A DNA stretch of 37,288 nucleotides from a virus: positions 1-37,288 of IMG/VR virus record IMGVR_UViG_3300005264_000023, one strand, 5' to 3'. The notes under the pieces are model-generated. The model was not told the origin of the DNA. It worked only from the letters and a program-made list of their open reading frames with translations, and made no database searches. The translations under genes were made by a program, and so were the position numbers. Below are positions 9,538-26,198 of this stretch, one piece after another (the stretch's first letter is position 1; each line of letters starts with the position of its first letter).

Positions 9538-9545
9538 GAGTTAAA

Positions 9546-10166
9546 ATGATGAAATTAATAACGGAAATTTCAAAAGAATTAGTAGTTAATGAATCTAAAA
9601 GTAAAGGCACTTTTATTACTGGTATTTTTAGTTCTGCTGAAATTGAAAACAACAATGGTAGAATATATAAAAAACAACTTTTAGAACGTGAAATTAAAAA
9701 AATTATTCCTAAAGTAGAAAAGAAATGTTTATGGGGTGAATTAGGACATCCACCAAATCCAGAAGTAAATCCTGATAAAATAGCTATTCTTACTACTATG
9801 TTAGAATGGAAAAATAATGATGTATATGGAAAATCAAAAGTACTTGATACACCTTTTGGTAATATTTTAAAAACTCTAGTGAAAGAAGGTAGAATGGGTA
9901 TTAGTTCTAGAGGTCTTGGTACTGTAGGAGAAGATGGATATGTAAATGAAGATTTTAGTTTACTTGTTTATGATGCTGTAACAGATCCTTCAAATAACCC
10001 TTCATGGGTAAAAGGAATTTTTGAAGCAAAAGATTTTAATATTATTGAAGATCCAAAAGAAAGAGAAAAAGAAATTGATGAACATTTAACAATTTTGCAA
10101 AATTTTGCAAAAGCACCTAAATCAAAAATCTTTAAAGCTTTAGGTTATGATAAAAAAATTAAATAA
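9546..10166 (+). CDS. gp21: Prohead core protease
   Basis: A 206-residue T4 gp21-type serine protease (herpesvirus-assemblin-like fold). The catalytic His is in WGELGHPPNPEVN and the Ser in GRMGISSRGLG. T4 gp21 is 212 residues and cleaves prohead proteins after (I/L)-x-E once the shell is built. Its own N-terminus has VNE|S near residue 17, a possible self-cleavage site. GGAG is placed for the first of two adjacent ATGs. It is the presumed processing enzyme for all the tagged proteins in the window. Confidence 0.92.
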   Translation: MMKLITEISKELVVNESKSKGTFITGIFSSAEIENNNGRIYKKQLLEREIKKIIPKVEKKCLWGELGHPPNPEVNPDKIAILTTMLEWKNNDVYGKSKVLDTPFGNILKTLVKEGRMGISSRGLGTVGEDGYVNEDFSLLVYDAVTDPSNNPSWVKGIFEAKDFNIIEDPKEREKEIDEHLTILQNFAKAPKSKIFKALGYDKKIK

Positions 10167-10217
10167 AACTTTATATACCAATAGTTTTAATACTATTTTA
10201 TATAATTCATTAATAAT

Positions 10218-10225
10218 TATAAATA
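10218..10225 (+). promoter_or_regulatory. T4-type late promoter box
   Basis: TATAAATA in the 84-base gap before the scaffold gene, giving a leader of about 20 bases with a very strong AAGGAGG site. This would feed scaffold and major capsid, the most abundant head proteins. Confidence 0.55.
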
Positions 10226-10250
10226 ATAATAAAAAAGGAGGAAATTCCTA

Positions 10251-11099: not shown

Positions 11100-11128
11100 T
11101 AAAGAATTATTCTATTTAGGAGGAAAAA

Positions 11129-12352
11129 ATGGAAATTAAAGAATTAGTAAAAAAATGGAGTGAAGTGATCAATGAAGGATCAAAGATCAGAAGTGATAAA
11201 GTAAAAAAAGCCACAGCAATTATGTTGGAAAATCAACATAAATTCTTGGAAGCAAGAATAGATGAATCAACAGCTTTTGCTGGTGATAGTTTAAATACTA
11301 CTGGTGGTTATACTGGATCTGGTATGTTTCATAAAATCGCTGTACCAATGGTAAGAAGAACATTCCCAGAATTGATTGCTCACGATTTAGTAGGTGTTCA
11401 ACCAATGACTGGTCCTGTTGGATTGGCTTTCGCGCTTAGATTTGTTTCAGGTCAAGCTTATGATAGTACAATTGGAACAGAATTAGGTTATAATACTATT
11501 GATAAGACTTATACTGGATCATATAATACTTCAGCCGGTGAAGTACTTGGTTCAAAATCTGGATCTGGTGTTGGTAATGATGTTGGTATTGGTCTTGGTG
11601 CTGGTACTCATATTAAAGAAGTAAATATGACAGTAGAAAAGGCTCAAGTGGAAGCACAAACTCGTAAGTTGAGAAGTCGTTGGTCACTTGAAGTAGCTCA
11701 AGATTTAAAAGCTATGCATGGTCTTGATCTTGAAGAAGAAATGATGGATATTCTATCATACGAAATTACCGCTGAAATTGATCGTGAATTGATTGATAAA
11801 ATTGATGCCGTTTGTGTTGCTGGTGGTGCTAGTTATTCTTCTACATGGGATTATAACGCAGCTTCTGGTACTGGTGTTCCAGGTGGTAGATGGGAACTTG
11901 AAAGATATAGAGAACTATATCACCACTTGATCAGAAAATCAAATGCTATCGCTGTTAATACAAGACGCGGTGCAGGTAACTGGGTTGTATGTAATCCAAA
12001 TGCTTGTGCAATCTTTGAAACACTTTCAGCTTTTACTATCGCACCTGTAGCCTCAGATGTAACAACAGCTAATACTGGTGTTGCAAGATTAGGCTCATTG
12101 GATGGTAGAATTGCTGTTTATCGTGATACATTTCAAACAAATGATCAATTTATTGTTGGATATAAAGGACCATCAGAATATGATACTGGTGTAATTTATT
12201 TACCATATATTCAATTGCTACCTGCAAGATCTACTTTTGAAGATTCTTTCAACTCAGCAGTTGGTCTTATGAGTCGTTATGCTATTCATGACCATCTATT
12301 TGGAAGTAAAGAATACTACCAAAGAGTAAACCTTGTAGCAATCCCAAAATAA
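11129..12352 (+). CDS. gp23: Major capsid protein
   Basis: A 407-residue HK97-fold T4 gp23-type capsid protein: KIAVPMVRRTFPELIAHDLV, GVQPMTGPVGLAFALRF, LRSRWSLEVAQDLKAMHGLD and the C-terminal LMSRYAIHDHLFGSKEYY. T4 gp23 loses 65 N-terminal residues to gp21. The equivalent site here is probably IDE|S after residue 46, just before AFAGDSLNTTGG; a second (I/L)-x-E site, INE|G, follows residue 16. AGGAGG lies upstream. G+C is a little higher than in neighbouring genes, as expected of a highly expressed gene. It ends just before a strong terminator. Confidence 0.95.
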   Translation: MEIKELVKKWSEVINEGSKIRSDKVKKATAIMLENQHKFLEARIDESTAFAGDSLNTTGGYTGSGMFHKIAVPMVRRTFPELIAHDLVGVQPMTGPVGLAFALRFVSGQAYDSTIGTELGYNTIDKTYTGSYNTSAGEVLGSKSGSGVGNDVGIGLGAGTHIKEVNMTVEKAQVEAQTRKLRSRWSLEVAQDLKAMHGLDLEEEMMDILSYEITAEIDRELIDKIDAVCVAGGASYSSTWDYNAASGTGVPGGRWELERYRELYHHLIRKSNAIAVNTRRGAGNWVVCNPNACAIFETLSAFTIAPVASDVTTANTGVARLGSLDGRIAVYRDTFQTNDQFIVGYKGPSEYDTGVIYLPYIQLLPARSTFEDSFNSAVGLMSRYAIHDHLFGSKEYYQRVNLVAIPK

Positions 12353-12381
12353 TGTAATAATCTTACATTATATCCCCAAAT

Positions 12382-12415
12382 AAAAAAGGGAACACTTAAT
12401 TGTGTTCCCTTTTTT
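12382..12415. terminator. Strong bidirectional intrinsic terminator
   Basis: Perfect 14-bp stem (AAAAAAGGGAACAC with GTGTTCCCTTTTTT) around a 6-base loop. The plus-strand T tract ends the capsid transcript. The mirrored A tract gives a T tract on the minus strand, where the opposing genes converge. Confidence 0.92.
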
Positions 12416-12422
12416 AACGCTT

Positions 12423-12533
12423 TTAATATAGTACCGCCGAAAAGGGCTTTAACTTAGAAATGGCGGCCTTTATAGCCTTTTTTACTCGTTTATTATCAAC
12501 AGAATAATAGGCAGATTCTAAGTGCCCAATTAC
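12423..12533 (-). pseudogene. Out-of-frame C-terminal extension of the 12530-12859 gene
   Basis: Directly behind the stop of the Fn3-like gene is a 36-codon open frame in the -1 phase, starting VIGHLESAYYSVDNKR and ending KLKPFSAVLY. It has clear protein character (basic amphipathic helix) and higher G+C than its surroundings, but no start codon or separate ribosome binding site. It joins the upstream gene in frame if the ribosome slips -1 on AAGGGGG (run of five G at 12533-12537) or if one G is missing. So it is a decayed 3' end, a sequence error, or a programmed frameshift product. Confidence 0.45.
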
Positions 12534-12859
12534 CCCCTTATAATTTCACCATCTGCTGGAGGATTTGGAGCAATAAAATCTAAAGGAACGTCATTTATAA
12601 ATATCATTGATGATTCATTACCCACTTCATCATATGCAGATAGACCTAGATTATAAATACCATCTTTTGTAGTCATACCTTCAAGTTGAGTAATATCATA
12701 TTTTACCTTTCCATCTATTTCCGGACTTTGATTTCCAATATCCCAATATTGACTTTCTCCACTAACAGCATTTGGTGCTTCTTCCATATAAAGAAAGTAT
12801 CCTTGAACATCTGGAGAGTCAGAAGGAGTATATGTCAAAAATGTTGGTTTTACAGCCAT
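12530..12859 (-). CDS. Fibronectin-III-like protein
   Basis: A 109-residue protein with one Fn3/Ig-like domain: PTFLTYTPSDSPDVQGYFLY, GKVKYDITQLEG and the typical GIYNLGLSAYDEVGNES. There is no signal peptide. ATG 12859 is preferred, with AGAGGTG before it; a GTG ten bases further up lies inside that site. It could decorate the capsid or be an adhesin module. Its stop is followed in the -1 frame by an open extension (12423-12533). Confidence 0.6.
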   Translation of the reverse strand: MAVKPTFLTYTPSDSPDVQGYFLYMEEAPNAVSGESQYWDIGNQSPEIDGKVKYDITQLEGMTTKDGIYNLGLSAYDEVGNESSMIFINDVPLDFIAPNPPADGEIIRG

Positions 12860-12879
12860 GTTTATCACCTCTTTTATTT

Positions 12880-13386
12880 TTATTTTATAATACTAATACC
12901 ACCACCTCCTGGTGGACTTATCCATGTGAATATCCACCAAGCTTTATTTACACCATTAACCGTTGCATACATAGGATCAATAGATTCTACCCAATCACTA
13001 TAACAAGGTACTAATGGTGAATTTGGATCATCTGGATCTTCATACTTACAATTATTTTTTACTGCTCTTACTTTAGGAATATAATGACCAACTCTAGATA
13101 ATATTATAGTAATTTGAGTATTTGGTGTTATACCTTTTATTAAATCAACACCCATATCTCTATGATAAATTTTAAATTCATATTCATCTGGATGTGTGCA
13201 ATTATCATCATTACAAGATTCTGTCCATCCAATAGTTATTTCTTTTCCTGTAAATCCTGAGTATGTAGTATATTCTAATTGTTCCCATGCAAATGAATCA
13301 CGAAGAAAATATGATCCAACCATTAAAAAAATAAGAAAAAATGTAACCGCATATTTTTCAAACTTTTTATCAAAACTCTCTTTCAT
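12880..13386 (-). CDS. Exported or membrane-anchored Fn3-like protein
   Basis: The 168 residues start with a basic stretch and a hydrophobic segment (about 13-29, YAVTFFLIFLMVGSYFL), then DSFAW, a possible signal peptidase site. The rest has Fn3-like strands (EITIGWTES, YEFKIYHRDMG, HYIPKVRAVKNN, CYSDWVESID) and paired cysteines, in keeping with an exported, disulphide-bonded protein. GGAG precedes the start. It neighbours a second Fn3-like gene, and the pair sits between capsid and terminase genes on the minus strand. Role unknown; superinfection exclusion or surface display are guesses. Confidence 0.6.
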   Translation of the reverse strand: MKESFDKKFEKYAVTFFLIFLMVGSYFLRDSFAWEQLEYTTYSGFTGKEITIGWTESCNDDNCTHPDEYEFKIYHRDMGVDLIKGITPNTQITIILSRVGHYIPKVRAVKNNCKYEDPDDPNSPLVPCYSDWVESIDPMYATVNGVNKAWWIFTWISPPGGGGISIIK

Positions 13387-13402
13387 TTAATACTCCGTTT
13401 CT

Positions 13403-14953
13403 TTAATCTCTCAAGTTTGATTTATCTAACCATGAAAAATCCCAATTATCTACAGTTTCTTCGATATCCGACAAAATTCCCCAACAATCTTCTTCATAAT
13501 CCTTTTCAATGAAAGTAAATGACTCATCAAAAATATTCATATTAATAACATAAATTGCCCAATATAAAGCACTTACACAATCATCAGGCTTATCTTTTCC
13601 AAAAAACTTACCTTTTTCTTCAATAAATGAAGCTAATTCTTCTACTGTATCAGAATCATATAAAAGAATACTTCCATCTTCTATAAGTTTTTTCATTAAT
13701 AAGACAGCTTTTGGTTTTGTTGTTCTTGAAGCTCGTATTCCAAGATTAATACTCTTAGATCCAGTATTAACTAATCTTTCATTTTCATATTCCCACCATA
13801 TTCTTTCAACAACAGCACTACCTTCACCATTATTTTCAACCATCATATATGCATTATTATAATATTTTGACAGTCTATTTAATATTTCAGAATAATTATA
13901 AACATCAGTATTATTATCCCTAAATACAGCTACTTGTTTCATTTTTACAGGTACTAAAGAATCAATTCTCATTACTTGTATAACAGAATAATTTTCACCA
14001 GTTCCTTTAGCTGGATCACATCCCATAACGTACTGTGCGTTCTCTTTTGGTTTTTCATAAATTTTTAATTTACTATTTAAATCAACTATTTTTGGTGGTT
14101 TAATACTTGATAATAATACATCTAAAGTTACTGAATTAATTAAAGTATTTGTACTTCCAAGAAATTCAACAGCAAATTCTTGTGCAAACTGTTGTTCACC
14201 TAAGTTTTCAAGTTGTTCTAAAGCCCATTCTTTATCACGACCAGGAACTGCTTGCCATGAAATCTTTGTTGGAACAAAAGTATTTTTTCCTCTTTCTGCT
14301 TGTGAATATATCCTATGGAAAATATTAAACATACCATTTGGTGTCGAAATAATAATAATTTTTGATTTTTTAGAAGAAGAAATAGTAGGATAATTAGCAG
14401 ACCAAAATTCTTCAGCTTGGTGACTATTAACAAAAGCAAATTCATCACATATTAATAAGTTAACAGCTTCACCACGCATAGCATCAGGTGAAGTAGCTGA
14501 AATAATTAATCTTGATCCGTTATCAAAAGTAGTTGCTGTTTTAGCATATTCACTAACACCAGGTTTTAACCAAGATGGAAGTGTTTCATACATTCTTTTT
14601 ACTCTTGAAAGAATCATTTTTGCACTTGATTCTTTATTACTAACGATACCTATAACTTTATCTTCATGAAAAATCGAATACCACAATGCATATATTCCAA
14701 CAATAGTAGTTTTTCCACTTTGTCTGGAACATAGTGCAATATTAAATCTTTCCTTTTGAAACTTTTCTAATAAATCTAATTGATAATCATAAGGTTCAAA
14801 TAATGTTTCACCTATATCTAAATTTATTATTTTTACATACTTTAAAAAATAAAACGGATCTTCTGAACATTTTTTTAATTCTAGTATTTGTTCTGGGTTA
14901 TATTCCGACTCTTCATTCGGTCTTTTTACCCACTCATCATATCTAATAGCCAT
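13403..14953 (-). CDS. gp17: Large terminase subunit
   Basis: A 516-residue T4 gp17-type packaging motor. ATPase: Walker A SRQSGKTT (residues 76-83), Walker B LLICDE (166-171), coupling motif ISTPNG (202-207). Nuclease: the RNase-H-like core starts VMGCDPAKG with Asp313, continues in MMVENNGEGS and ends with DDCVSALYWA. T4 gp17 is 610 residues, so this one has a shorter N-terminus. It is transcribed opposite to the head genes, directly behind spoVR. Its ribosome binding site AGAGGT lies in the 3' arm of a perfect 16-bp hairpin whose loop carries a late promoter, so expression should be late only. Confidence 0.95.
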   Translation of the reverse strand: MAIRYDEWVKRPNEESEYNPEQILELKKCSEDPFYFLKYVKIINLDIGETLFEPYDYQLDLLEKFQKERFNIALCSRQSGKTTIVGIYALWYSIFHEDKVIGIVSNKESSAKMILSRVKRMYETLPSWLKPGVSEYAKTATTFDNGSRLIISATSPDAMRGEAVNLLICDEFAFVNSHQAEEFWSANYPTISSSKKSKIIIISTPNGMFNIFHRIYSQAERGKNTFVPTKISWQAVPGRDKEWALEQLENLGEQQFAQEFAVEFLGSTNTLINSVTLDVLLSSIKPPKIVDLNSKLKIYEKPKENAQYVMGCDPAKGTGENYSVIQVMRIDSLVPVKMKQVAVFRDNNTDVYNYSEILNRLSKYYNNAYMMVENNGEGSAVVERIWWEYENERLVNTGSKSINLGIRASRTTKPKAVLLMKKLIEDGSILLYDSDTVEELASFIEEKGKFFGKDKPDDCVSALYWAIYVINMNIFDESFTFIEKDYEEDCWGILSDIEETVDNWDFSWLDKSNLRD

Positions 14954-14955
14954 AA

Positions 14956-14996
14956 AATTTTACCTCTTATAATTTATTTATATAAGAGGTAAAATT
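14956..14996 (-). promoter_or_regulatory. Hairpin hiding the terminase ribosome binding site
   Basis: Perfect 16-bp inverted repeat (14956-14971 with 14981-14996) around a 9-base loop, in the 51-base gap between spoVR and the terminase gene. In mRNA read from upstream the 3' arm contains AGAGGT, the only ribosome binding site of the terminase, paired to ACCTCT; the stem ends two bases before the ATG. On the plus strand the hairpin is followed by seven T, but no plus-strand gene precedes it. Confidence 0.7.
14975..14982 (-). promoter_or_regulatory. Late promoter inside the hairpin
   Basis: TATAAATA on the minus strand covers the hairpin loop and a few stem bases. Initiation about six bases downstream (near 14969) would give a leader of about 16 bases, AAGAGGTAAAATTTT then ATG, that lacks the 5' arm and so leaves the ribosome binding site free. 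Confidence 0.6.
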
Positions 14997-15004
14997 CTTT
15001 TTTA

Positions 15005-16492
15005 CTAATTTCTTTTATAATCTACAGAATAAACAAATTCTTTATCATTAATTTTTGTTTTTAACATACTTCTCCCACCCCACAAATAACTAATATGTTT
15101 CATAGTTTCTTTTGTATAATCTGGATCAAGATCAACTCCTGCCCATTTATGATGTAAAACAATTTCTTTTCTATCATATCCCTTCACAACTTCTATTGCT
15201 GGAATATGACTATGAACAAAACTGTTTACTATAATTTTTCTAGTTTCTTCTGCTTCATGATCTGTAATTATCCATCTTTCCCAATCTGGAACAGGAACTT
15301 GTTTTACATATAAATAAATGTTTAAATCTTTTACTAATTTTGCTGTTAAAAATTCTTGAATAAAAAACCAATCATTATAATTACTTAAAACAGTTTTAAT
15401 TTTTTCATTACCAGCCATTGTTTTTTTATCCCAATTTTCTAATTCTACAGCATTAGTACAATTTTTATAATCTTCACCAAATTTTCCTGTATTCCATCTA
15501 TCTTCAATATCTTCCCATATACTACATCCAACTAGATAAGGATTTAAAGAATAAGGATTTGTTGCTTTCACTAATGAATTTGCATAATTAAACTGTGCAT
15601 GTTCACTATCATTAAGAAATCCTCTTTTAAAAAGTTCTTTCATTACTTTTTGATGAATAAATGTTGCGAATCCTTCATTAGCATATTTTGATTTAATTGA
15701 TGGCCAATAATATCTACCTTCATCTCTAAGAGTTTCAAGTATATCTTTTTGCCAATCATCTAAAATTACAGAATTATCAACTAAAAACCTTAAAATATCT
15801 TCAGTAGGTTCAACAGGTTTTTTTAGTCTTAAAGTTCTCATTAACAATTGATTTTTTAAACCAACATCAATTTCCTTTTTATTATCATCTATAGTTAATA
15901 TATCACGAAATTCAGAATGAATCTCAGGTTCTTTTACTAACAATTTTTGTTTATAAATTCTTTCAATTTTTTGATCTTCAGTTTCATTATCAAAAGGACT
16001 TGAATGAAATTGAATTGCATGTCCAGCATCAATAGTTTTTTCAACTTCTTCAATTCCATAGATTTTTTCATATTTTGAAAATCTATTACTAGCAGATGAC
16101 ATTACTTCCAATATATCTCTACGAGAATTTTGAAATAATCTATTATGGTAAAAAAAAGCAGCGTGTCCACATACATGAGCCATTACCAAACACTGAACAG
16201 CTAAAGTATTAGATTTCATTAAATACGACCTAACAGGATCAGTATTTAAAACAACTTCATATGGCAATCCTGCATCCATATTATCATAAATAGTTTTTTG
16301 TCTTTCATAATCACGACCATATTTCCAATTAGAAATATTAGTAGGAATACGATAAGCCATAATTTCCATCATTTTAACATCTGGAATAATATCCCATTCA
16401 ATATCATAATATTCAAAACCCATTTCTTCTTTAACAATTTTATGAATTTCTTCTTCAATTTTGATAAGTCTTTTTAGTTCAGATCTATTCAT
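15005..16492 (-). CDS. spoVR: SpoVR/YcgB family protein
   Basis: A full-length, 495-residue SpoVR-family protein (E. coli YcgB is about 510). Typical are the N-terminal helical part with GFEYYDIEWDIIPDVKMMEI, MAYRIPTNISNWKYGRDYER, the CGHAAFFYHN stretch, RDEGRYYWPSIKSKYANEGF, YSLNPYLVGCSIWEDIEDRW and a C-terminal HHKWAGVDLDPDYTKET. SpoVR is needed for spore cortex in Bacillus; in other bacteria it accompanies yeaH and prkA in starvation-linked operons, with no known biochemistry. It follows yeaH by three bases and has its own AGGGGA site. There are no frameshifts or missing parts, so it looks functional. Confidence 0.95.
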   Translation of the reverse strand: MNRSELKRLIKIEEEIHKIVKEEMGFEYYDIEWDIIPDVKMMEIMAYRIPTNISNWKYGRDYERQKTIYDNMDAGLPYEVVLNTDPVRSYLMKSNTLAVQCLVMAHVCGHAAFFYHNRLFQNSRRDILEVMSSASNRFSKYEKIYGIEEVEKTIDAGHAIQFHSSPFDNETEDQKIERIYKQKLLVKEPEIHSEFRDILTIDDNKKEIDVGLKNQLLMRTLRLKKPVEPTEDILRFLVDNSVILDDWQKDILETLRDEGRYYWPSIKSKYANEGFATFIHQKVMKELFKRGFLNDSEHAQFNYANSLVKATNPYSLNPYLVGCSIWEDIEDRWNTGKFGEDYKNCTNAVELENWDKKTMAGNEKIKTVLSNYNDWFFIQEFLTAKLVKDLNIYLYVKQVPVPDWERWIITDHEAEETRKIIVNSFVHSHIPAIEVVKGYDRKEIVLHHKWAGVDLDPDYTKETMKHISYLWGGRSMLKTKINDKEFVYSVDYKRN

Positions 16493-16495
16493 ATT

Positions 16496-17806
16496 TTATT
16501 TCCCCTTCTTTTCAAAAAGAAAGTGTTTTAGTGTTGGATAAATATGCTCTTTATTTTTAATTAAACTCGCTAAAAAATGATGTTTTTCATCTTTATAAAA
16601 GAAAGTATCTTTTTGTTTAATTTCTTTAAAATTCCATTTTTCATAACTAACAATATGTTTTAAAAGTGATGTATATAATTCTTCACCTTGAAGATTAATT
16701 TGACAATATCCTAGCATATTAATTTTTCTTTCAATCATTTTATCAATAGTAGTCACTGTTTTTTTAGGATCGAAATCTTCACCATCAGAAACATAAACAC
16801 AATAAACATTCCAATCACTTACAGGATATTGAGTATCAATAATATAATTAGCCTTTTCAAATGCAGAAGAACAAAATGTTCCACCATAAGAACTTTCATT
16901 AAAAAATCTTTCTTCATCTGTTATTTCAGCTTCAGTTGTATGTCTAATAAATACAATCTCAACATTATCATATACTTTTTTCAAAAATTCCATCATCCAA
17001 AATAACATTGATCTAGCAAGATATTTTTTATCTCTTGTCATTGATCCAGATACATCCATCATTGCTATTACCACAGCATTTGAATGAAATTCAACATCTT
17101 GCTCTATTTGTTTATATCTTAAATCTTCATCACTAATAAAAATACCTGGATCATTTGAAGGTTCTAATGTGCCATTATTAATTATTTCAATGGCTTCATT
17201 AATATCACCAATAGCTTGAATTAATGCTTTATTAGCATCATCTTCTGAACACCCAGTTTCATTCATAATTTCATATGAAAAAGCAACATTTCTTTTAATT
17301 GATTCTAACATAGTACGTTTTTTATGTATCATTGGTACTATACCAGTTTTAGAAATGGTTTCAAATTTCCATCCTTTAGGAATTGCTTTTTCTTTTTTAG
17401 TTTTTTCTTCAATCCATGGCAATCCTAAATCATTAAACATAATTTTTATAATATAATCAATGTCAACTTCTGTTTCCATATAGTATTCACCATTTTTATC
17501 ACCAGCACCTTTACTATCATCTTTACCTTCTTTTTGATGAATAATATCACCGGGTTTCCCATCACCCTGCCCAACACCACCACTATTACCTTTACCACTA
17601 GGATTACCATATCTAAATTTATAATCTTTTAATCCACGAATAGGAATTTTAACTTTTCTACCACGTTTTGTTGTTATGATTGATTCTTCTGAAATAACAT
17701 CTTTCACACTTTTTCGAATTGACTCTTCAACTTTCTTTTGATGTCTCTCAATATCTTTTTTTCCTTTTTCAGAAAAATCCCAATCATCATGATATACAAC
17801 AGTCAT
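16496..17806 (-). CDS. yeaH: YeaH/YhbH (DUF444) von Willebrand A protein
   Basis: A 436-residue YeaH/YhbH homologue. Order: basic N-terminus (MTVVYHDDWDFSEKGKKDIE), the Arg/Lys region GRKVKIPIRGLKDYKFRYG, a Gly/Asp-rich linker (about 68-106), then a von Willebrand A domain with MIDAS DVSGS (251-255), RHTTEAEITDEERFF, the GGTFCSSAF loop and VYVSDGEDF. E. coli YeaH is about 427 residues. Between KRTMLESIKRN and GIFISDEDLRYK there is an apparent insertion (about residues 175-212) reading like a UBA/TS-N helix bundle. AAAGGAG and a near-perfect sigma-70 promoter lie directly upstream. It is first in a yeaH-spoVR-terminase transcript. Confidence 0.93.
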   Translation of the reverse strand: MTVVYHDDWDFSEKGKKDIERHQKKVEESIRKSVKDVISEESIITTKRGRKVKIPIRGLKDYKFRYGNPSGKGNSGGVGQGDGKPGDIIHQKEGKDDSKGAGDKNGEYYMETEVDIDYIIKIMFNDLGLPWIEEKTKKEKAIPKGWKFETISKTGIVPMIHKKRTMLESIKRNVAFSYEIMNETGCSEDDANKALIQAIGDINEAIEIINNGTLEPSNDPGIFISDEDLRYKQIEQDVEFHSNAVVIAMMDVSGSMTRDKKYLARSMLFWMMEFLKKVYDNVEIVFIRHTTEAEITDEERFFNESSYGGTFCSSAFEKANYIIDTQYPVSDWNVYCVYVSDGEDFDPKKTVTTIDKMIERKINMLGYCQINLQGEELYTSLLKHIVSYEKWNFKEIKQKDTFFYKDEKHHFLASLIKNKEHIYPTLKHFLFEKKGK

Positions 17807-17846
17807 AAATGACTCCTTTTATTTTTTAGTGTTCTCAATATGTTTT

Positions 17847-17875
17847 ATTATAACATATATCTTTCAAAATGTAAA
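17847..17875 (-). promoter_or_regulatory. Sigma-70-type promoter for yeaH-spoVR
   Basis: On the minus strand TTTACA, 17 bases, TATAAT, with TG at the extended -10 position (TATGTTATAAT). That is 5 of 6 and 6 of 6 consensus bases. The predicted start lies about 30 bases before the yeaH ATG. Confidence 0.8.
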
Positions 17876-17915
17876 TACCCCCATAAACATACATATTATA
17901 TATTCATGGGGGTAT
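17875..17915 (-). terminator. Probable prkA terminator overlapping the next promoter
   Basis: Perfect 10-bp stem ATACCCCCAT with ATGGGGGTAT and a 21-base loop, 29 bases after the prkA stop. A modest T-rich run (TTTACATTTT on the minus strand) follows and is also the -35 region of the yeaH promoter. The loop is long, so termination may be partial. Confidence 0.5.
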
Positions 17916-17943
17916 ATTTATTAAATTCTATCAGTTATGAAAT

Positions 17944-19899
17944 TTATTCGCGTCTTAAAATTTCACCAACAATACTTAAAATTACATTAGCACAATGTTC
18001 ACAGTGCCCCCTATCAATAAGCCTTTTTAGTGCTCTATTTCTAGAACGTTTTGACTTTTTATCAGTTCGTGTTGTATCTGAAAGTGACAAACTAACAACA
18101 TTTCTCAAGTCACCCATCAACTTTTTCTGAATGGCTTCTCTCAAAGGATCATAATCCATAAAAGAAAACTCTCTACCACTTTCTTGAACATCTGCTTTAT
18201 AAACAAATATCTGATTACGAAATTCTTTTTTAGAATTTTCAGGAACACCGATTTTTTCTTCAATAGACCTCATAAGTTTTTCATCTGGAGTTGAATACTC
18301 ACCAGTAATAGTATCCATAATCCTTTCATTCTTACAATATGCTTTTACATTAATCATATATCTATTGAATAGTTCATTTGCTTGTTCATCATAAGCATGT
18401 AAGAAAGCCATATTAACTTCTTTCTTTGCCCATTCTTTAAATTCAGATGTAATAGAATCTTTATCACCAAGAAGAAGATTACTAAAAGATTTAATTTCAT
18501 CTTCATCCAGGCTCATTTGATGTCCAAATTTATTTCTCAAACATCTAATTACATCAATAGGATTAATACACTTTTTATTAGTTTTAGAACCAAAACCAAC
18601 ATCCAATGCATCAATAACAAATCTTGGTGAAATACCTGTCATTCCTTCTTCGAGTCTTTTTCCTTCTTCTCTAAGAGCCTTTACATCAATATCAGTCTTT
18701 TTAAACTCTTGACTAACTTCACCATTATAAAGTTTCATTTTTTCTACCAAATTTGAAACTTTACTAGATTTTTTCAATCTAGAAAGAACAGCAAATTGAG
18801 CAGCGACTTCTAATGCTCTTGGAGCAATATGAAAATCATTAAAGTCAGATTCAGCAATCATTTTCTTATAAATTTTTACTTCATCATCAACTTTCAAATT
18901 CCAAGGAACTTTAACTGGATACATTCTATCATGAAGTGCTTCATTTTTCTTGTCACTTTTAAAAGAATCAAATTCAGTTTGATTAGTATGAGAAAGAATC
19001 AAAGCATCAATATACATTTGTGGAAAACCAGGTGCCTTAATTCTTTGTTCTTGTGTTGCTGTAAGAAGTACATAGTGAAATTTTACATCTGCTTTCAAAA
19101 TTTCAATATACTCAATAACACCACCGTTAGCTACTTGTAGTTCACCATTAAATTCATATGCTCTAGGATCTGTTTCACCATAACGAGCAACTTTAGCCAT
19201 ATTAACACGACCAATAAGCTCTGTGATATCCTGAGATTTTGGATCACTTGGTTGAAAAGTACCAATTCCAACTCTTCTTTGTTCAGAAAATACCACTTGC
19301 TCTACTGGAACAATTTCCCACTTTACATGACCGTCTTCATTAGTATAATTTTCATCAATCATACGTTGACAAGCAGGACACAATTCACCTTCAATTTTAA
19401 CACCTAAAGCATCAGACCAATATTCCCTATCCAATTCAGGTATCAAATGAAGTGGTTCTTCATGAAGTGGACATCCTTTAATACAGTACTTAGGAGTATC
19501 ATCCATTTCTAATCCTTTTTTAATAAGGGAAGCAATAGTTGATTTACCCGAACTTACAGGACCAACCATTAACAATACTCTTTTTCCTGTCTCAGTTTTA
19601 TGAGATGCGGCTTTCAAAAACCTCATCAAGTCATGAATAGGCTCCAAAGTACCAAAAATATTACCATCGAAAAAATTATATTTTACTAAATCTTCATATC
19701 CTTTAATTTTATCAACTTCTGGTACTTCACTAACACCTTTTTTCATAATCATATTGTAAATACGTCCAGATGCAAATTGTGCTACTTCTGGGTGTTCTTT
19801 TACAATATTCAAATAATCCAATACATTACCGTCCCATTTAATTGGATTTTTTCTTTCCCTCTGTTTCAAAATAATATCACGAAAATCTTGATTAATCAT
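17944..19899 (-). CDS. prkA: PrkA serine protein kinase / AAA+ protein
   Basis: A full-length 651-residue PrkA (bacterial forms are about 640). The AAA part has Walker A GPVSSGKST (113-121), the CPLHEEPLHLIP and CPACQRMI cysteine motifs, RVGIGTFQPSDPKSQDITEL, and GGVIEYIEILKADVKFHYVLLTATQE. The C-terminal PrkA domain has ISPRFVIDALDVGF, FMDYDPLREAIQKKLM and a final GHCEHCANVILSIVGEILRR. Bacterial PrkA is reported as a Ser/Thr kinase and, in Bacillus, as a Lon-like ATP-dependent protease; it usually partners YeaH and SpoVR. An upstream in-frame ATG at 19950 lies before the promoter -10 box, so ATG 19899 with AGAAAGGAA is used. Confidence 0.95.
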   Translation of the reverse strand: MINQDFRDIILKQRERKNPIKWDGNVLDYLNIVKEHPEVAQFASGRIYNMIMKKGVSEVPEVDKIKGYEDLVKYNFFDGNIFGTLEPIHDLMRFLKAASHKTETGKRVLLMVGPVSSGKSTIASLIKKGLEMDDTPKYCIKGCPLHEEPLHLIPELDREYWSDALGVKIEGELCPACQRMIDENYTNEDGHVKWEIVPVEQVVFSEQRRVGIGTFQPSDPKSQDITELIGRVNMAKVARYGETDPRAYEFNGELQVANGGVIEYIEILKADVKFHYVLLTATQEQRIKAPGFPQMYIDALILSHTNQTEFDSFKSDKKNEALHDRMYPVKVPWNLKVDDEVKIYKKMIAESDFNDFHIAPRALEVAAQFAVLSRLKKSSKVSNLVEKMKLYNGEVSQEFKKTDIDVKALREEGKRLEEGMTGISPRFVIDALDVGFGSKTNKKCINPIDVIRCLRNKFGHQMSLDEDEIKSFSNLLLGDKDSITSEFKEWAKKEVNMAFLHAYDEQANELFNRYMINVKAYCKNERIMDTITGEYSTPDEKLMRSIEEKIGVPENSKKEFRNQIFVYKADVQESGREFSFMDYDPLREAIQKKLMGDLRNVVSLSLSDTTRTDKKSKRSRNRALKRLIDRGHCEHCANVILSIVGEILRRE

Positions 19900-19929
19900 G
19901 AAATTTCCTTTCTTCTCAATTTTTACCAT

Positions 19930-19958
19930 ATTATACATCATCCCCAACAATATGTAAA
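19930..19958 (-). promoter_or_regulatory. Sigma-70-type promoter for prkA
   Basis: Minus strand TTTACA, 17 bases, TATAAT, ending 31 bases before the prkA ATG. Box sequences and spacing are identical to the yeaH promoter. It decides the prkA start, since the longer frame would begin upstream of the transcript. Confidence 0.8.
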
Positions 19959-19973
19959 TGTTTTTTTTATTTA

Positions 19974-20423
19974 TTATTCTTCAAGCTGATGTGGTGTTTC
20001 TCCGCTTTTTATAAATTTCAATAAATCTTCTCTGCTTGATACAATAATATTTTGATTAACAACACCACTGCCACTTCGTCGTACAACTTTTTTTTCTTTT
20101 ACAACAACTTCTCTTTCTTTTAATTTTATCATTTTATCCTTTAGTTGTAAACCCTCTTTTTGTAATGCATCATTAGATAGTTCTTTAGCTGATGCAGTAA
20201 TTCCATTAATTAAATCACTTGCTACTTCAACTAACCGAGCTGTGATGTTTCCTCTTGATAACTCATTATGTACTATATCAAGTATTTCATTTGCTCGATT
20301 TATATTATCTTTAATAATTTCAATAGGATCATCTTCATCTTTTCGTTGAATCAGTCCAGTCCTATTATCAATAGATGGTAAATTAAATTCATTATCTAAA
20401 TTTTCCATATTTAACTCAGGCAT
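19974..20423 (-). CDS. gp16: Probable small terminase subunit
   Basis: A 149-residue helical, coiled-coil protein matching the general form of T4 gp16 (164 residues): a disordered acidic start, a central helical pair (INRANEILDIVHNELSRGN then LVEVASDLINGITASAKEL), a charged coiled coil (KDKMIKLKEREVVVKEKKVV) and a short C-terminal segment NIIVSSREDLLKFIKSGE. It is transcribed toward prkA and, past the trio, the large terminase. AAGGAG lies upstream. The call rests on architecture and recalled family resemblance. Confidence 0.65.
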   Translation of the reverse strand: MPELNMENLDNEFNLPSIDNRTGLIQRKDEDDPIEIIKDNINRANEILDIVHNELSRGNITARLVEVASDLINGITASAKELSNDALQKEGLQLKDKMIKLKEREVVVKEKKVVRRSGSGVVNQNIIVSSREDLLKFIKSGETPHQLEE

Positions 20424-20497: not shown

Positions 20498-20509
20498 TAT
20501 TTATAAATA
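20498..20509. promoter_or_regulatory. Palindromic bidirectional late promoter
   Basis: TATTTATAAATA, identical to 4128-4139, between the divergent gp16-like (minus) and gp13-like (plus) genes. The plus-strand leader would be about 17 bases and includes AAAAGGGA; the minus-strand leader would be about 70 bases. Confidence 0.6.
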
Positions 20510-20531: not shown

Positions 20532-21401
20532 ATGCTTACAAAAAGAGAACTTGCAGAAAAAATTATAAGAAGGTTTGGATATCCAGTAGTAAAAGTTGAA
20601 TTAGAGTGGGAACATATTTATGATGCTATTGATTATGCCAGAGATAAATGGTTAAAATGGTCTTCTGGTCAATCAACTAATGATAATATTTACTTTACTA
20701 TGTTATTATCCGCTGGACAAAATTTATATGATTTACCTGTGGGTGTAAGAGAAGTAATAACATATACTTCTGATAGTGGTGGATGGGGAAGTGTAAATAC
20801 ATTATTTACCCTTGATAATTATCTTTATAATTCTGGTCTTTATGATGGTATTTTAGGAATGACAAGATATGGTGGAGCTGGTGCATATGGTGCTCAAAGT
20901 ATATATAATGGATATAATTTAATAACATACCATATAACTTTAGATTTTCTTGAAACACTTAAAAGGTATTCACCAGAAAAATATGATTGGAGATATCACA
21001 GATTTACTAATCAATTAGAAATACATCCAACACCACCTTCTGGTAATTTTTTTAATGTTTATGATACAGATGGAACAATAGTAGAAGTTGACTCACCTGG
21101 ATATGCATTAATTAGAGCATCTATGGTTGAAGGAAGTACTTATATACCTAATTGGAAAGAAGGTGATAGTGATGAATATTTTTATGGATCACAATGGATA
21201 TTAGATTATGCGGAAGCTATGGCAAAAGTAACACTGGGTAGAATACGAAGAAAATTTGAAAACTTTTCTTCCATAGGTAATACTGGTATAGCTTTAGATG
21301 GAGCTGATTTAATACAGGAAGGTCGTGAAGATATGGAAAAACTATATGAACAATTAAAAGAAGAAGAATCATATGTCGGTGGGGAAATACTTATAGGATA
21401 A
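20532..21401 (+). CDS. gp13: Neck protein, gp13-like
   Basis: A 289-residue protein at the start of the neck/tail block. The N-terminus (LAEKIIRRFGYPVVKVELEW) and the conserved end (ILDYAEAMAKVTLGRIRRKF, then GADLIQEGREDMEKLYEQL) match the gp13 neck proteins that close the head after packaging; T4 gp13 is 309 residues. The Gly/Tyr-rich middle is variable. The next neck gene, gp14-like, follows after one inserted gene. Confidence 0.82.
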   Translation: MLTKRELAEKIIRRFGYPVVKVELEWEHIYDAIDYARDKWLKWSSGQSTNDNIYFTMLLSAGQNLYDLPVGVREVITYTSDSGGWGSVNTLFTLDNYLYNSGLYDGILGMTRYGGAGAYGAQSIYNGYNLITYHITLDFLETLKRYSPEKYDWRYHRFTNQLEIHPTPPSGNFFNVYDTDGTIVEVDSPGYALIRASMVEGSTYIPNWKEGDSDEYFYGSQWILDYAEAMAKVTLGRIRRKFENFSSIGNTGIALDGADLIQEGREDMEKLYEQLKEEESYVGGEILIG

Positions 21402-21403
21402 TT

Positions 21404-21982
21404 ATGAGACTAGTACAATTTATAAATGAAGATATAAATTTAGATAGAATAAAAAAACAATGTAAATATTATATTGATTTAGTAAAAAAAAGTAATTGTA
21501 ATAATAAATTTCTTTATAAAGGTATGAATAAACAACATGATTTTGATATAATAAAAACAAGAAAAAACAGAAATCCTTTAAATATGCCTTTAAAATTACA
21601 TACTTATTTAGACTATTTATTTAAGAAAAAATTTGGTGTAAAATTAAGAAGTGAAACAATATTTGTAACTAGTGATGTTGTATGGTCTGGTAATTATGGA
21701 TTTCGAAATATTATAATTCCTATAGGTAAATTTGATTATTATTGGAACCCACATATGGATGATCTTTATGAAGATCTTCCATTTTTTACATCAGATAGTA
21801 ATATAGAAAAAAATCTTGATAAATATAAAGAAGAAATTATTGAAATTGTAGATGGATATAAAAAAAATAAAGCTTTCAAAGTAATGAAAGATGTTTTTGA
21901 TGGTGAAGTAATGATTGATTGTAAATCATATTATGCTACTACATCAGAAGATTCAGAATATTTAAATCAATTATTTGAATAG
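21404..21982 (+). CDS. Candidate packaged ADP-ribosyltransferase-like protein
   Basis: A 192-residue protein starting MRLVQFINE|D, the tag form seen at 4173-6899. The body has a conserved pattern I recall from large T4-like phages: FLYKGM (36-41), a segment NRNPLNMPLKLHTYLDYLF, LRSETIFVTSD (81-91), then IIIPIGKFDYYWNPHMDDLY, and GEVMIDCKSYYA (167-178). The order (Y-x-G near the N-terminus, a TS strand, then an E-V strand) resembles R-S-E class ADP-ribosyltransferases, but the usual Arg of YRG is Lys here and the ExE is not clear. T4 Alt is a packaged ADP-ribosyltransferase, so the idea is attractive but unproven. It is inserted between neck genes. Confidence 0.55.
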   Translation: MRLVQFINEDINLDRIKKQCKYYIDLVKKSNCNNKFLYKGMNKQHDFDIIKTRKNRNPLNMPLKLHTYLDYLFKKKFGVKLRSETIFVTSDVVWSGNYGFRNIIIPIGKFDYYWNPHMDDLYEDLPFFTSDSNIEKNLDKYKEEIIEIVDGYKKNKAFKVMKDVFDGEVMIDCKSYYATTSEDSEYLNQLFE

Positions 21983-21990
21983 GATACATA

Positions 21991-22626
21991 ATGACAAAGA
22001 TAAGTGAATTAATAAAACCAACATGGGAACTTTACCAAATAAATGATAATGTTGAGCATGATTTATTTGAAAATTATATAGTAGAGTTTACTGATATATC
22101 AGGAATTAAAATTAATTACTTTATTCTTGATGAAAATAAAGTAATTTTAGATACTCTTTATGGTGAAGCCCAAAAACAAAATGAATCATATCTTGGTCCT
22201 TTTGAATCAAAAACAGTATATGATGTCACAGAAGAAACAACACTTACAAATAGTTTTGGAATAAATTCAGAAGATATAATACAATATCTTTCTATACCTA
22301 AATTTACTTTTTCAAGAGATATTAGTGCTTCATATGAACCTAAACCTGGTGATGTGATACAAACATTATGGAATGAAAGAAATTATGAAATTGTTGATGT
22401 TCATGAAGAATCAAGAATATTTCAATTAAAGAAAATGGCATGGGAATTTCTAGTAAAACCTTTTAGATTTAGTTCTGATACTGAATCAGCAAAATCAATT
22501 TTAAAAGATCCAGATAGTACAATGTCAAATCCATTATCTGCTTATGGTAATAATGAATGGTTAGAAGATGAAAGTGAAAAAATTCATGACTATTCAGATA
22601 CAGATAAATCAGTATATGGTTATTAA
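21991..22626 (+). CDS. gp14: Neck protein, gp14-like
   Basis: A 211-residue protein in the gene 14 position. FSRDISASYEPKPGDVIQTL followed by NYEIVDVHEESRIFQLKKMA and WEFLVKPFRFS fits the gp14 head-tail connector family (T4 gp14 is 256 residues), which joins the portal/gp13 ring to the tail terminator. The C-terminus is acidic and Ser-rich. AGGA precedes the start. Confidence 0.78.
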   Translation: MTKISELIKPTWELYQINDNVEHDLFENYIVEFTDISGIKINYFILDENKVILDTLYGEAQKQNESYLGPFESKTVYDVTEETTLTNSFGINSEDIIQYLSIPKFTFSRDISASYEPKPGDVIQTLWNERNYEIVDVHEESRIFQLKKMAWEFLVKPFRFSSDTESAKSILKDPDSTMSNPLSAYGNNEWLEDESEKIHDYSDTDKSVYGY

Positions 22627-22635
22627 GGGAAAATA

Positions 22636-23424
22636 ATGAAAGAATACTATTACTTACAAGGATTAAGAAAAACTATAATACAATTTTTAGATACTTTAAA
22701 TGATATTCAAATTGCTAGATATAATGAAAATGGTAATTTTACTCAATATTATAAAGTACCTGTAAAATTTGGTACTAAAAGAAAAATATGGTATTGGTTA
22801 GAGGAAAGAAAAGACGATCAAATGCATCCAATCATTTCAGTTCAAATGACTGGTCTTGATTATGATACAAATAGATTAACAAATAAAATGTTTAAAATAA
22901 TAAAAACTAGAAGTATAAGTGCTGGTGATATTTCAAGATTTTTAAATCCATCACCATATAATATTAATTTTAGCGTAAGTATTTGGGCTTTAAATATGGC
23001 TGATATTGATCAAATTATTGAGCAAATACTTCCTTTTTATAATCCATATATTTTTATTAAAATTAAAATACCTGAATTAGATGCAGATCTTGATTTAAAA
23101 GTAATGTTTAATAGTGTATCACCGGATGTTTCTAACGATATACCAGATGATGATTATAGGAATATTATATATAATATGGAATTTACTGTTCATGGTTATT
23201 TATTTAGACCTATTTCAGACGGTAAAATTATCAAACAAATTATTACTAAGTTTTATGCTGATCAAGAAGCTTGGGCTCATATGGGAACAGAATCAACATA
23301 TACTTCTGGTGCATCTGGACATGAAGCTGAATCAAGCTTTATAAAAGGTATAGAACCTTGGTATGATGAAGAAGGAGAAAAACTATATAAATATTATATA
23401 TTCCCAAATACTAATAAAACTTAA
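22636..23424 (+). CDS. gp15: Tail terminator / sheath stabiliser, gp15-like
   Basis: A 262-residue protein like T4 gp15 (272 residues), which caps the tail tube and binds the neck. Recognisable are the N-terminal YYYLQGLRKTIIQFLDTLND, the central YKVPVKFGTKRKIWYWLEER and PIISVQMTGLDYDTNRLTNK, and INFSVSIWALNMADIDQIIE. Position directly after gp14 supports the call. AAGGG lies upstream. Confidence 0.85.
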   Translation: MKEYYYLQGLRKTIIQFLDTLNDIQIARYNENGNFTQYYKVPVKFGTKRKIWYWLEERKDDQMHPIISVQMTGLDYDTNRLTNKMFKIIKTRSISAGDISRFLNPSPYNINFSVSIWALNMADIDQIIEQILPFYNPYIFIKIKIPELDADLDLKVMFNSVSPDVSNDIPDDDYRNIIYNMEFTVHGYLFRPISDGKIIKQIITKFYADQEAWAHMGTESTYTSGASGHEAESSFIKGIEPWYDEEGEKLYKYYIFPNTNKT

Positions 23425-23442
23425 AGTTGTTTAGGAGAATAA

Positions 23443-23637
23443 ATGAGAATAAAGAAATACTTATTAAATGAAAAAATATTTAATATGTCTGCTATTGTTG
23501 GTAATAAAAAAATTACAAAACCAGTAGTTGCAAAAAATGATAATGATGCAATAAAACAATTCGAAGATTTTTTAAAAATTCAAATTAAATATAAACACAT
23601 AAAAAATGGAAAAATAGAAAATGTTAAAATAAATTAA
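23443..23637 (+). CDS. Small candidate packaged protein
   Basis: A 64-residue basic protein starting MRIKKYLLNE|K, a form close to the tagged proteins. The rest (MSAIVGNKKITKPVVAKNDN onward) looks like a small beta-alpha unit and is not recognised. GGAG lies seven bases upstream. It sits between the tail terminator and the glycosyltransferase fusion. Confidence 0.5.
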   Translation: MRIKKYLLNEKIFNMSAIVGNKKITKPVVAKNDNDAIKQFEDFLKIQIKYKHIKNGKIENVKIN

Positions 23638-23651
23638 AGGAGTTTAAAAAT

Positions 23652-26198
23652 ATGTTGCAAAACAAAAAAATTTGTATACTATCTCACTTTGGAAGTTTTC
23701 AAGATAGTTATGCGTTACATATTGGATGGTTAGAAAGAGCAAAGATTTTAGAGTACTACAATATAGATTTTGATTTTTTAGTAAATGATAAATGTAATAC
23801 TGATGTATATCCACATCAAAGAAATGTATTAAAAAATGTTTCAAAAATGTCAACATTTAAAAAACGAGTTGAATTTTTTGAAAGAGAATATATTGAATTA
23901 TTAAGTGATTATGATATAATACTTACTTGTGATCTTGTATATCAAAGAGGTGGAAATTTCCTACCACAAAATCAAGCAATGAGAAATGTTTCAAAACATT
24001 TAAAAGCTCATTGGTTCCACTGGATACATTCAGCATGGACAAATCCTAATCCTAATGAAAAATACCCTGATTCTTTAAGAAATCAAATGCCACCAAGATC
24101 AACACTTGTTTATATGAATGAATCTGAAAAAGATGGTATAGCAAAAATGTATAATACAAGTATTAATAATGTTAAATGTGTGTGGAATCCTAAAGATATT
24201 AGATCATTTAAAGATTTTCATCCTTTAGCTTGGGAAGTAACAAAAAAATTAGATATACCAAATAAAGATATAGTACAAATATTTCCACACTGCGCAACAA
24301 GAATGAATGCTAAAGGTATTGATTCTATTATTAAAATTTTTGCATCATTAAAAGATAAAGGACAAAAAGTTGCTTTAGTTTTAGCAAATGGTAATGCCAG
24401 TAGAGTACAAGGTGATATAAAAAAGAAAAAGAAATATATGGAAGATTTAGGTCTAGTTAGTGGTGAAGATTTTTTATTTACACATGAAATAACACAATTA
24501 AGACCATTTCCTAGAAAAGCTGTTGCTGATATTTTTAGTATATCAAATTTATTTATTTTTGCATCATATAGAGAAGTGTCACCAAATGTATTACTTGAAG
24601 CTAAAATATCAGATAACTTATTAGTATTAAATAAAAGATTAAAATGTGTTCAAGAATTTGGTGGTGAAAATGCTATATATTTTGAATCATCATTTAAAAC
24701 ACCTGGAATTAGAGATGGTGAACCTGGTGATATGCAAGTAGTAAAATATAATAATGAAAAAAAGTATTTTTATAATCTTGCAAATGCAATAATAAAAACA
24801 GTTAAAAACAAAAAACACATCTGGAAATTTTCTTATGAAAATATATGGAAAAATCAATTATATCCACTACTAAATTCAGCTAAAACATATGAAGTAGAAG
24901 AATATAAAAAAGAAATTAAATCATCACCTATTGATATAAGTATTTATGATGATAAAAAATGGAATGGTGTAAGAAAAGAAATTCGATGGTTTATTGATTA
25001 TTTAAAACCAATAAGGTATTTAGAAATAGGATTAGGTGATGGAAGAAATTTTAATAATGCACCAATAAAAGAAAAAGTATGTATATCACCTAAAGGATGT
25101 GTAAAAAATCCAGACAGAATGTATCATGGCAACTCTGATGATATATTTGAATCACTTGGTGAAGATCCATTTGACTTAATTTTTATTGATGGTTTCCATA
25201 ATTATAAACAAGTAGTAAAAGATTTAAATAATAGTTTAGAATATTTAAAACCAAACGGTGTTATACTAATTCATGACGTTAATCCATTAGATAAACCAGA
25301 TTTTGTATCTGGTGATAAACAAAAAGGTGGAAAACCTTGGTGTGGTGATGTATGGAAAATAATACCACATATAAAGTATAAAAGAACAGATTTGGATTTT
25401 GTTAATATAGAAGAATTTCCTGGTCTTACTGTAGTTTGGAAAAGAAAAAATAAAAGAAAAATAATAATTAAAGATGAAAAAATGTTTAGTGATTATAGAT
25501 ATCCATGTGTTCACTTAACAATAGATTATGCAAGAAAGCATAAAAAACTATTTGACTTTTTACCATTTGAAGATGCCATAAAAAAATTCATTGATAAAAG
25601 AAATAATAGTATTGAAAATGCCGGTTTGATTTCTATATATAATTTTCCAATGGCTGATAAACTTATAATTGATCTTGCTAAAAGAGTTGATTATCTTTCA
25701 ATCAGATTAGATCCAAATGGTGATAAGTTACTATTTAAATCATGTATTGAAAAAGTAAAAAAAGAATGTGAACTAAATATAATTGAATCAAAATTAATAT
25801 GGAATAGATGGAATTGGAGAGAAGAACTTATAAGAAGTTTAGATAATATAAAACCTAAAAATGTTTTATTTTTAGATGAAGATGAAACATATAGCGATGA
25901 ATTTAACGAAGATTTTGAGAATTTTCAAAGAACAAATTTAAAATACATGGCATTTGATTATGAAATGATAACTGAAAATAGTACAAAAGTAGATAAGTAT
26001 CCTAAAGCAAGACATTGTAAAGTTTTTAAATGGATGGAAGGAATTACTTATCAACCATATAAAGGATATGCAATTCCAACATTTCCAATTAACCCCCAAC
26101 CAGATTATCATATTGGTGGATATAGATGTAAGTCAAAAATTAAACATTACTGTTTTTATACAGATATTTTAAGAAAAAATAAAAAATTACATAAATAA
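23652..26198 (+). CDS. Three-domain GT4 glycosyltransferase, methyltransferase and GT-A-like protein
   Basis: An 848-residue fusion. Residues about 1-400 are a GT-B (GT4-like) glycosyltransferase: strand KICILSHFGSFQDS, FPHCATRMNAKGIDSIIKIF, and the EX7E pair Glu308/Glu316 in REVSPNVLLEAK. Residues about 430-595 are a class I methyltransferase: EIGLGDG (458-464) and FDLIFIDGFHNYKQVVKDL, then GVILIHDVNP, the Methyltransf_24 pattern. Residues about 655-848 look like a GT-A-type transferase: ENAGLISIYNF and NVLFLDEDETYSDEF, with DED as a possible metal site. AAGGAG lies upstream. It interrupts the tail genes between gp15 and the tube paralogue, suggesting a virion or cell-envelope target, which is not shown. 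Confidence 0.75.
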   Translation: MLQNKKICILSHFGSFQDSYALHIGWLERAKILEYYNIDFDFLVNDKCNTDVYPHQRNVLKNVSKMSTFKKRVEFFEREYIELLSDYDIILTCDLVYQRGGNFLPQNQAMRNVSKHLKAHWFHWIHSAWTNPNPNEKYPDSLRNQMPPRSTLVYMNESEKDGIAKMYNTSINNVKCVWNPKDIRSFKDFHPLAWEVTKKLDIPNKDIVQIFPHCATRMNAKGIDSIIKIFASLKDKGQKVALVLANGNASRVQGDIKKKKKYMEDLGLVSGEDFLFTHEITQLRPFPRKAVADIFSISNLFIFASYREVSPNVLLEAKISDNLLVLNKRLKCVQEFGGENAIYFESSFKTPGIRDGEPGDMQVVKYNNEKKYFYNLANAIIKTVKNKKHIWKFSYENIWKNQLYPLLNSAKTYEVEEYKKEIKSSPIDISIYDDKKWNGVRKEIRWFIDYLKPIRYLEIGLGDGRNFNNAPIKEKVCISPKGCVKNPDRMYHGNSDDIFESLGEDPFDLIFIDGFHNYKQVVKDLNNSLEYLKPNGVILIHDVNPLDKPDFVSGDKQKGGKPWCGDVWKIIPHIKYKRTDLDFVNIEEFPGLTVVWKRKNKRKIIIKDEKMFSDYRYPCVHLTIDYARKHKKLFDFLPFEDAIKKFIDKRNNSIENAGLISIYNFPMADKLIIDLAKRVDYLSIRLDPNGDKLLFKSCIEKVKKECELNIIESKLIWNRWNWREELIRSLDNIKPKNVLFLDEDETYSDEFNEDFENFQRTNLKYMAFDYEMITENSTKVDKYPKARHCKVFKWMEGITYQPYKGYAIPTFPINPQPDYHIGGYRCKSKIKHYCFYTDILRKNKKLHK

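Follow-up and report, generated by a model that had tools for sequence, protein, structure and literature searches.

A prkA-yeaH-spoVR trio between the terminase genes of a T4-like phage clade: a possible inherited host-takeover module

Why would a phage keep a complete set of bacterial starvation genes between the two subunit genes of its DNA-packaging terminase? The question is raised by IMG/VR virus record IMGVR_UViG_3300005264_000023 (37,288 bases, GC content 26.5%; this whole stretch is the window referred to below), in which genes for PrkA, YeaH and SpoVR, here called the trio, lie between those for the small (TerS) and large (TerL) terminase subunits. The PrkA-YeaH-SpoVR set occurs widely among bacteria, where it is linked to sporulation and to surviving starvation, and its substrate is not settled. 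In cells, PrkA (YeaG) is required for adaptation to nitrogen starvation (PMC4664914), and PrkA acts in sporulation and stress survival (PMC13001217). We propose, with about even confidence, that the phage trio is an inherited host-takeover module, expressed early, in which a modified version of the bacterial stress machine is used during infection. The five genes are all intact and follow one another on the minus strand:

19974-20423, minus strand: TerS-like terminase small subunit, 149 residues (PHROG 445, E 3.6e-5, a weak match), in a position conserved in relatives
17944-19899, minus strand: PrkA-family AAA+ protein, 651 residues (Pfam PF08298, 1e-114, and PF06798, 7.3e-66)
16496-17806, minus strand: YeaH/YhbH (DUF444) VWA protein, 436 residues (PF04285, 2.5e-89), with a VWA fold in its model
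15005-16492, minus strand: SpoVR-family protein, 495 residues (PF04293, 1.9e-94), with invariant H106, H110, E273 and H280
13403-14953, minus strand: TerL, T4 gp17-type terminase large subunit, 516 residues (PF03237 (Terminase_6N), 2.2e-18; PF17289, 2.5e-9)

A sequence-only reading of the window had described a full-length trio with intact motifs between gp16-like and gp17 genes at 15005-19899; the open reading frames, Pfam matches and residue counts agree with it, and the coordinates are exact. Relatives of the 149-residue TerS-like protein occupy the same place in dozens of contigs. PrkA has both the AAA_PrkA and the PrkA C-terminal domain at full length and finds a relative among solved structures in 9xip (E 4.8e-125); at 316 bits against the NCBIfam equivalog PRK15455, below the cut-off of 576, it is classed by its profile scores as a divergent family member and not as the enterobacterial equivalog. 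The DUF444 domain of YeaH carries the invariant residues of the metal-ion-dependent adhesion site (MIDAS), D251, S253, S255, T310 and D341, and in SpoVR both the SpoVR domain and a C-terminal domain (5.4e-7) exceed their cut-offs. At positions conserved in at least 95% of cellular homologues, PrkA retains 87 of 101 residues, including Walker A G113, P114, G118, K119 and S120, YeaH 36 of 37, the MIDAS set among them, and SpoVR 43 of 56, including the four invariant residues listed above; several bacteria-invariant residues of the trio are altered throughout the phage clade described below. We do not claim a zincin-like fold for SpoVR, which H106-x3-H110 had suggested, as no significant fold match was found in the PDB (best E 0.74); weak matches to M61 peptidase and DPP III had probabilities of about 0.2 or less.

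The trio is an old possession of these phages. A PrkA query returned 57 viral loci, 52 of which, including the window, fall in a single clade that we call G1. G1 forms one branch with support of 100 in each of the PrkA, YeaH and SpoVR trees, on stems of 0.8-1.1 changes per site, and among the matches listed the nearest cellular PrkA proteins, from Chloroflexota and Bacillota, are at most 46% identical. Divergence runs in parallel among the three proteins (Mantel r 0.77-0.83), with looser coupling to TerL (0.44-0.61), and reaches a similar depth (mean p-distance 0.36-0.47 for the trio and 0.41 for TerL). These single long-stemmed branches, together with parallel divergence at TerL-like depth, indicate that the trio is an old inherited part of G1. 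Between the window and contig L004 the ratio of nonsynonymous to synonymous substitution rates is 0.13, 0.16 and 0.20 for the trio genes and 0.15 for TerL; purifying selection on the trio is thus about as strong as on TerL. The sequence-only reading had asked whether the phage versions form one clade, which they do, or instead scatter among host sequences as expected of a recent capture of the host's operon; the latter is ruled out, since G1 is nested in no host group in any of the three trees. A cellular sample of 80 loci and quick trees do not suffice to say exactly how many captures took place. We propose that a whole bacterial prkA-yeaH-spoVR operon was taken up by an ancestor of these T4-like phages, that the operon settled between TerS and TerL at a junction open to accessory genes in this family, and that vertical descent followed.

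How general is this position? The full order TerS-PrkA-YeaH-SpoVR-TerL is found in 39 of the 52 PrkA-selected G1 contigs, most of the others ending at contig edges, and a recurrence on this scale excludes both a chance arrangement and a position unique to one genome. The complete trio stays together in every clade contig long enough to judge. A survey unselected for the trio, made with a TerL query and covering contigs with at least 4 kb upstream (n=28, not dereplicated), found trio genes upstream of TerL in 25, the missing ones lying beyond contig or locus ends, and a PIN-PhoH gene instead of the trio in the other 3. In the window, L004 and L066 the TerS-trio-TerL block is inverted relative to its neighbours, yet whole; in the window the inverted minus-strand block spans 12530-20423, includes two small genes, and is flanked on both sides by T4-like structural genes on the plus strand. 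Two observations weaken the case for a strict link to the terminase. In 3 of the 52 G1 contigs (L021, L038 and L040) the trio has no adjoining terminase gene, although these contigs are themselves fragments in which no recognisable TerL is present, and across G1 the gap between SpoVR and TerL ranges from 4 bases to 5.5 kb. The sequence-only reading had singled out the position as the unusual part of the locus. We found no description of the trio at the TerS-TerL junction in the open-access literature searched; the position is the rule for a whole clade and not a peculiarity of this genome. As a separate observation, the TerL reading frame is fragmented in an intron- or intein-like manner in L026, L098, L100, L054 and L301.

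The same slot holds other genes in related phages. In sister phages it is taken by a PIN-PhoH gene:

L103, 8740-9924: PIN-PhoH in the TerS-TerL slot
L091, 6668-8908: PIN-PhoH in the TerS-TerL slot; this copy is enlarged and intein-like in appearance
L301, 4697-5914: PIN-PhoH in the TerS-TerL slot
L296, 2342-3523: PIN-PhoH in the TerS-TerL slot

PrkA is absent from the entire 171-kb contig L091. The L310 lineage has a lytic transglycosylase between TerS and TerL, and in a Kyanoviridae phage the two terminase genes directly overlap. The PhoH lineage branches off separately in the TerL tree (support 99), and the transglycosylase lineage is nested in the trio clade, which fits a single gain of the trio followed by its loss or move. 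Between the two T4-type packaging genes the locus has a slot for accessory genes, with PhoH and the trio as alternatives and, as described below, sigma70-type sites amid late genes.

Two features of the clade that the sequence-only reading had missed bear on what the trio does. The first is an insertion in YeaH:

17171-17281, minus strand: UBA/TS-N-like insertion in YeaH, about residues 176-212, specific to G1

The insertion adds about 40 residues, flanked by the conserved segments KKRT..E..KR and DDLRYK, and a profile built on it matches 69 of 69 G1 YeaH proteins and none of 156 others (68 from cellular contigs, 75 from the marine phage group, 9 from named phages and 4 others). Single insert sequences match several Pfam UBA families weakly, below cut-offs, and the profile matches the UBA domain of archaeal NAC (1tr8, E 4.4e-6) and EF-Ts (E 0.0019). 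AlphaFold predicts high-confidence helices at the insert and a VWA fold after it, and the YeaH model matches the MIDAS domain of MDN1 (8ql1). By sequence, the insert appears to resemble a UBA/TS-N domain; we found no report of such an insertion in YeaH in the open-access literature. Since its nearest solved relatives are the archaeal NAC UBA and the N-terminal domain of EF-Ts, a plausible client would be EF-Tu or another translation factor, and we raise as a tentative idea, on the doubtful side, that the insert docks the PrkA motor onto this new client, so that translation or the control of dormancy in the host would be reset early in infection. With a conserved docking domain added, the phage copies would help to identify what the machine acts on and what phages gain from the trio. 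Apart from this clade-wide insertion, YeaH of L021 (12444-15080) contains an intein that carries a LAGLIDADG endonuclease, and the next gene encodes an HNH endonuclease.

The insert also bears on one alternative to host takeover, in which the trio is mere cargo of the slot and acts just as the host copy does, supporting survival under nutrient stress, with no new client, a decorative insert and a position that is frozen history. The occupants of the slot do differ among lineages, the catalytic and MIDAS residues are the same as in bacteria, and viral spoVR has been proposed to aid host persistence (PMC8940887). Retention of the insert in 69 of 69 proteins, however, is beyond what would be expected of decoration, and the clade-wide changes at several bacteria-invariant residues also argue against an unmodified host function. 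We consider this alternative unlikely.

The second feature is a promoter pattern, found by comparing the upstream regions of clade genes against shuffles. In T4, the late-promoter sequence TATAAATA is recognised by gp55. This sequence is enriched upstream of the genes for sheath (10/11), scaffold (19/32), TerS (25/43), TerL (30/60), portal (8/17) and neck (19/56), and it occurs in none of 147 regions upstream of PrkA, YeaH and SpoVR, where 4.3 would be expected; TerS, TerL, neck and sheath are thus predicted to be T4-type late genes, and the three trio genes are not. Sigma70-type sites scoring at least 11/12 show another distribution: they precede TerS (13/43), PrkA (8/47, 0.1 expected) and YeaH (5/50), are hardly found elsewhere, and in strong form are absent upstream of TerL, neck and sheath. 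Upstream of TerS, late and sigma70-type motifs are often fused (TATAATATAAATA). In the window the relevant sites are:

20498-20509, no strand: palindromic TATTTATAAATA, a putative T4-type late promoter in both directions, for TerS and the divergent neck gene
19930-19958, minus strand: sigma70-type site TTTACA-17-TATAAT before PrkA, of a motif class enriched in the clade
17875-17915, minus strand: terminator-like hairpin between PrkA and YeaH, a consensus match only, the regional count being not above shuffles
17847-17875, minus strand: sigma70-type site TTTACA-17-TATAAT with TG extension before YeaH
14975-14982, minus strand: T4-type late promoter TATAAATA before TerL, 22 bases upstream

TATTTATAAATA occurs exactly twice in the window (4128-4139 and 20498-20509), each time between divergent genes, for which it would act as a T4-type late promoter in both directions. 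Taken by itself, the window has no excess of TATAAATA over chance (22 vs 17), so that the late-promoter claim rests on the comparative set, and sigma70-type and late-type sites are neither rarer nor commoner than chance. The simplest reading of the pattern, of which we found no report in the open-access literature, is that the trio, placed among late genes, can be transcribed early.

We propose that the trio is probably made early, and later again along with TerS, given sigma70-type sites at TerS, PrkA and YeaH that the host polymerase could read, a late promoter at TerS, and trio genes with no late promoter of their own. Its three proteins probably form one machine, with PrkA as the AAA+ motor, YeaH as the VWA (MIDAS) adaptor and SpoVR, which has a conserved His/His/Glu/His site, as a partner. 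The clade-specific insert would supply the adaptor with a new client, and the machine would remodel a host (or phage) factor, holding the cell in a starvation-like but productive state. The sequence-only reading had likewise suggested that the phage alters host physiology, perhaps with a kinase or protease complex of its own. The first part remains the preferable interpretation, since late promoters like those of the adjoining genes are missing from the trio; the wording in terms of kinase or protease is insecure, as purified B. anthracis PrkA has negligible activity of either kind (PMC13001217).

Several points weigh against host takeover. Gene content, position, ancestry, selection, insertion and promoter pattern are observed, whereas we infer the complex, its client, its early expression and the effect on the host; early expression rests on a promoter pattern read from sequence in DNA of 26.5% GC, and many clade members have no strong sigma70-type site before PrkA. 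Since TerS carries late promoters as well, the trio is probably also read late. No clade member is among the genome contigs listed in a search for the host. Finally, the trio of the Thermus phage Lalka27b adjoins TerL, which a purely accidental position does not explain.

This last point leads to the main mechanistic rival, in which the trio is a packaging or capsid-assembly chaperone that remodels TerL, portal or procapsid, and its location reflects joint work with TerS and TerL. Retention of the position in 39 contigs, the survival of the TerS-trio-TerL block through inversion, the succession of head genes, trio and TerL in Lalka27b, and the placement of the trio between neck and sheath genes in some marine phages are all consistent with such a role. 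It is opposed by the lack of late promoters at the trio genes, by close relatives that package their DNA with PhoH or a transglycosylase in the trio's place, by the trio standing away from terminase genes in L021, L038 and L040, by the variable gap between SpoVR and TerL, and by a distance of tens of kilobases from TerL in most marine and huge phages. We judge it improbable, and less likely than host takeover. Evasion of defence or exclusion of competing phages, as with many early-expressed accessory genes, would fit the early expression suggested by the sigma70-type sites and the variability of the slot, but we rate it as very unlikely; the homologues in cells are known from starvation and sporulation (PMC4664914, PMC13001217).

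The structural genes elsewhere in the window are of T4 type as well. Portal, protease, scaffold, head, neck and sheath genes form a T4-like packaging and head module together with the gp17-type TerL:

7765-12352, plus strand: head module of portal, head protease, scaffold and major head protein
20532-28553, plus strand: neck, sheath stabilizer, tail tube and sheath genes, among which lie a few others

Two tail-tube homologues flank the sheath gene (26207-26704 and 28624-29154, plus strand), and between the neck and tail genes an 848-residue protein (23652-26198, plus strand) combines a methyltransferase domain with a weak glycosyltransferase match. A 427-residue protein with response-regulator receiver and PAS domains (2112-3395, minus strand) is another possible host-signalling gene, and a TnsA-like endonuclease N-terminal domain is encoded within a cluster of small genes (5113-5571, plus strand).

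PrkA, YeaH-like and SpoVR genes are already known in phages, and the annotations that the sequence-only reading had mentioned are real: they exist in Thermus phages, in the Ralstonia jumbo phage RsoM2USA (PrkA and SpoVR; PMC8504454) and as viral spoVR in an oxygen minimum zone (PMC8940887). The survey of phage genomes that it had called for finds the whole trio in several lineages on separate branches (marine phages, a group with huge phages, and Thermus phages), outside G1 mostly elsewhere in the genome. The Thermus phages phiYS40, TMA, YS40_Isch, phiLo, MN1, Lalka27a/b and Lalka8 carry PrkA, YeaH-like and SpoVR genes: the trio adjoins TerL in Lalka27b, where the genes run portal, minor head, YeaH, SpoVR, PrkA, two small genes, TerL, and lies about 4 kb from TerL in YS40_Isch. 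They differ in that the order is YeaH-SpoVR-PrkA, the trio is not between TerS and TerL, PrkA is 30-36% identical, and the UBA insert is absent; a scan of viral contigs with Lalka27 PrkA returned nothing. The huge phages (LR756511 and others), the marine phages (G2) and RsoM2USA likewise carry PrkA and SpoVR, but on separate branches and mostly far from TerL. In the marine group, which has no UBA insert, the order is YeaH-SpoVR-PrkA; in some members the trio lies between neck and sheath genes, and in the longer contigs examined it is mostly far from TerL. PhoH is nearby in this group, 3-8 kb downstream of PrkA in 49 of 81 marine trio loci. Two marine-branch loci deserve separate mention. L188 (NHDW01000006.1, 305,838 bases), filed under a Methylococcaceae metagenome-assembled genome, probably represents a jumbo phage that was binned together with bacterial sequence, as its trio groups within the branch of marine phages and its PrkA contig has a phage terminase; and in L246 the gene directly after PrkA (11790-13067) has a partial GroEL-like PHROG match and no Pfam match.

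The PIN-PhoH of sister phages shares with the G1 trio the same slot in related T4-like phages and belongs to a family that is starvation-associated by name; it is a different gene family, and among trio contigs it occurs only in L005, elsewhere on the contig. The operons of bacteria, prkA-yhbH/yeaH-spoVR/ycgB (yeaGH and ycgB in E. coli; trios in Bacillota and Chloroflexota), encode the same three families, in cellular contigs such as L112-L120 in the same order, PrkA-YeaH-SpoVR. G1 keeps the conserved motifs and differs in forming a separate branch and in a YeaH insert absent from the 68 cellular YeaH proteins. PrkA is an AAA+ family of its own, and we claim no membership in the MoxR/VWA and midasin systems; the likeness is one of working principle, in that these systems, too, pair an AAA+ motor with a VWA/MIDAS protein.

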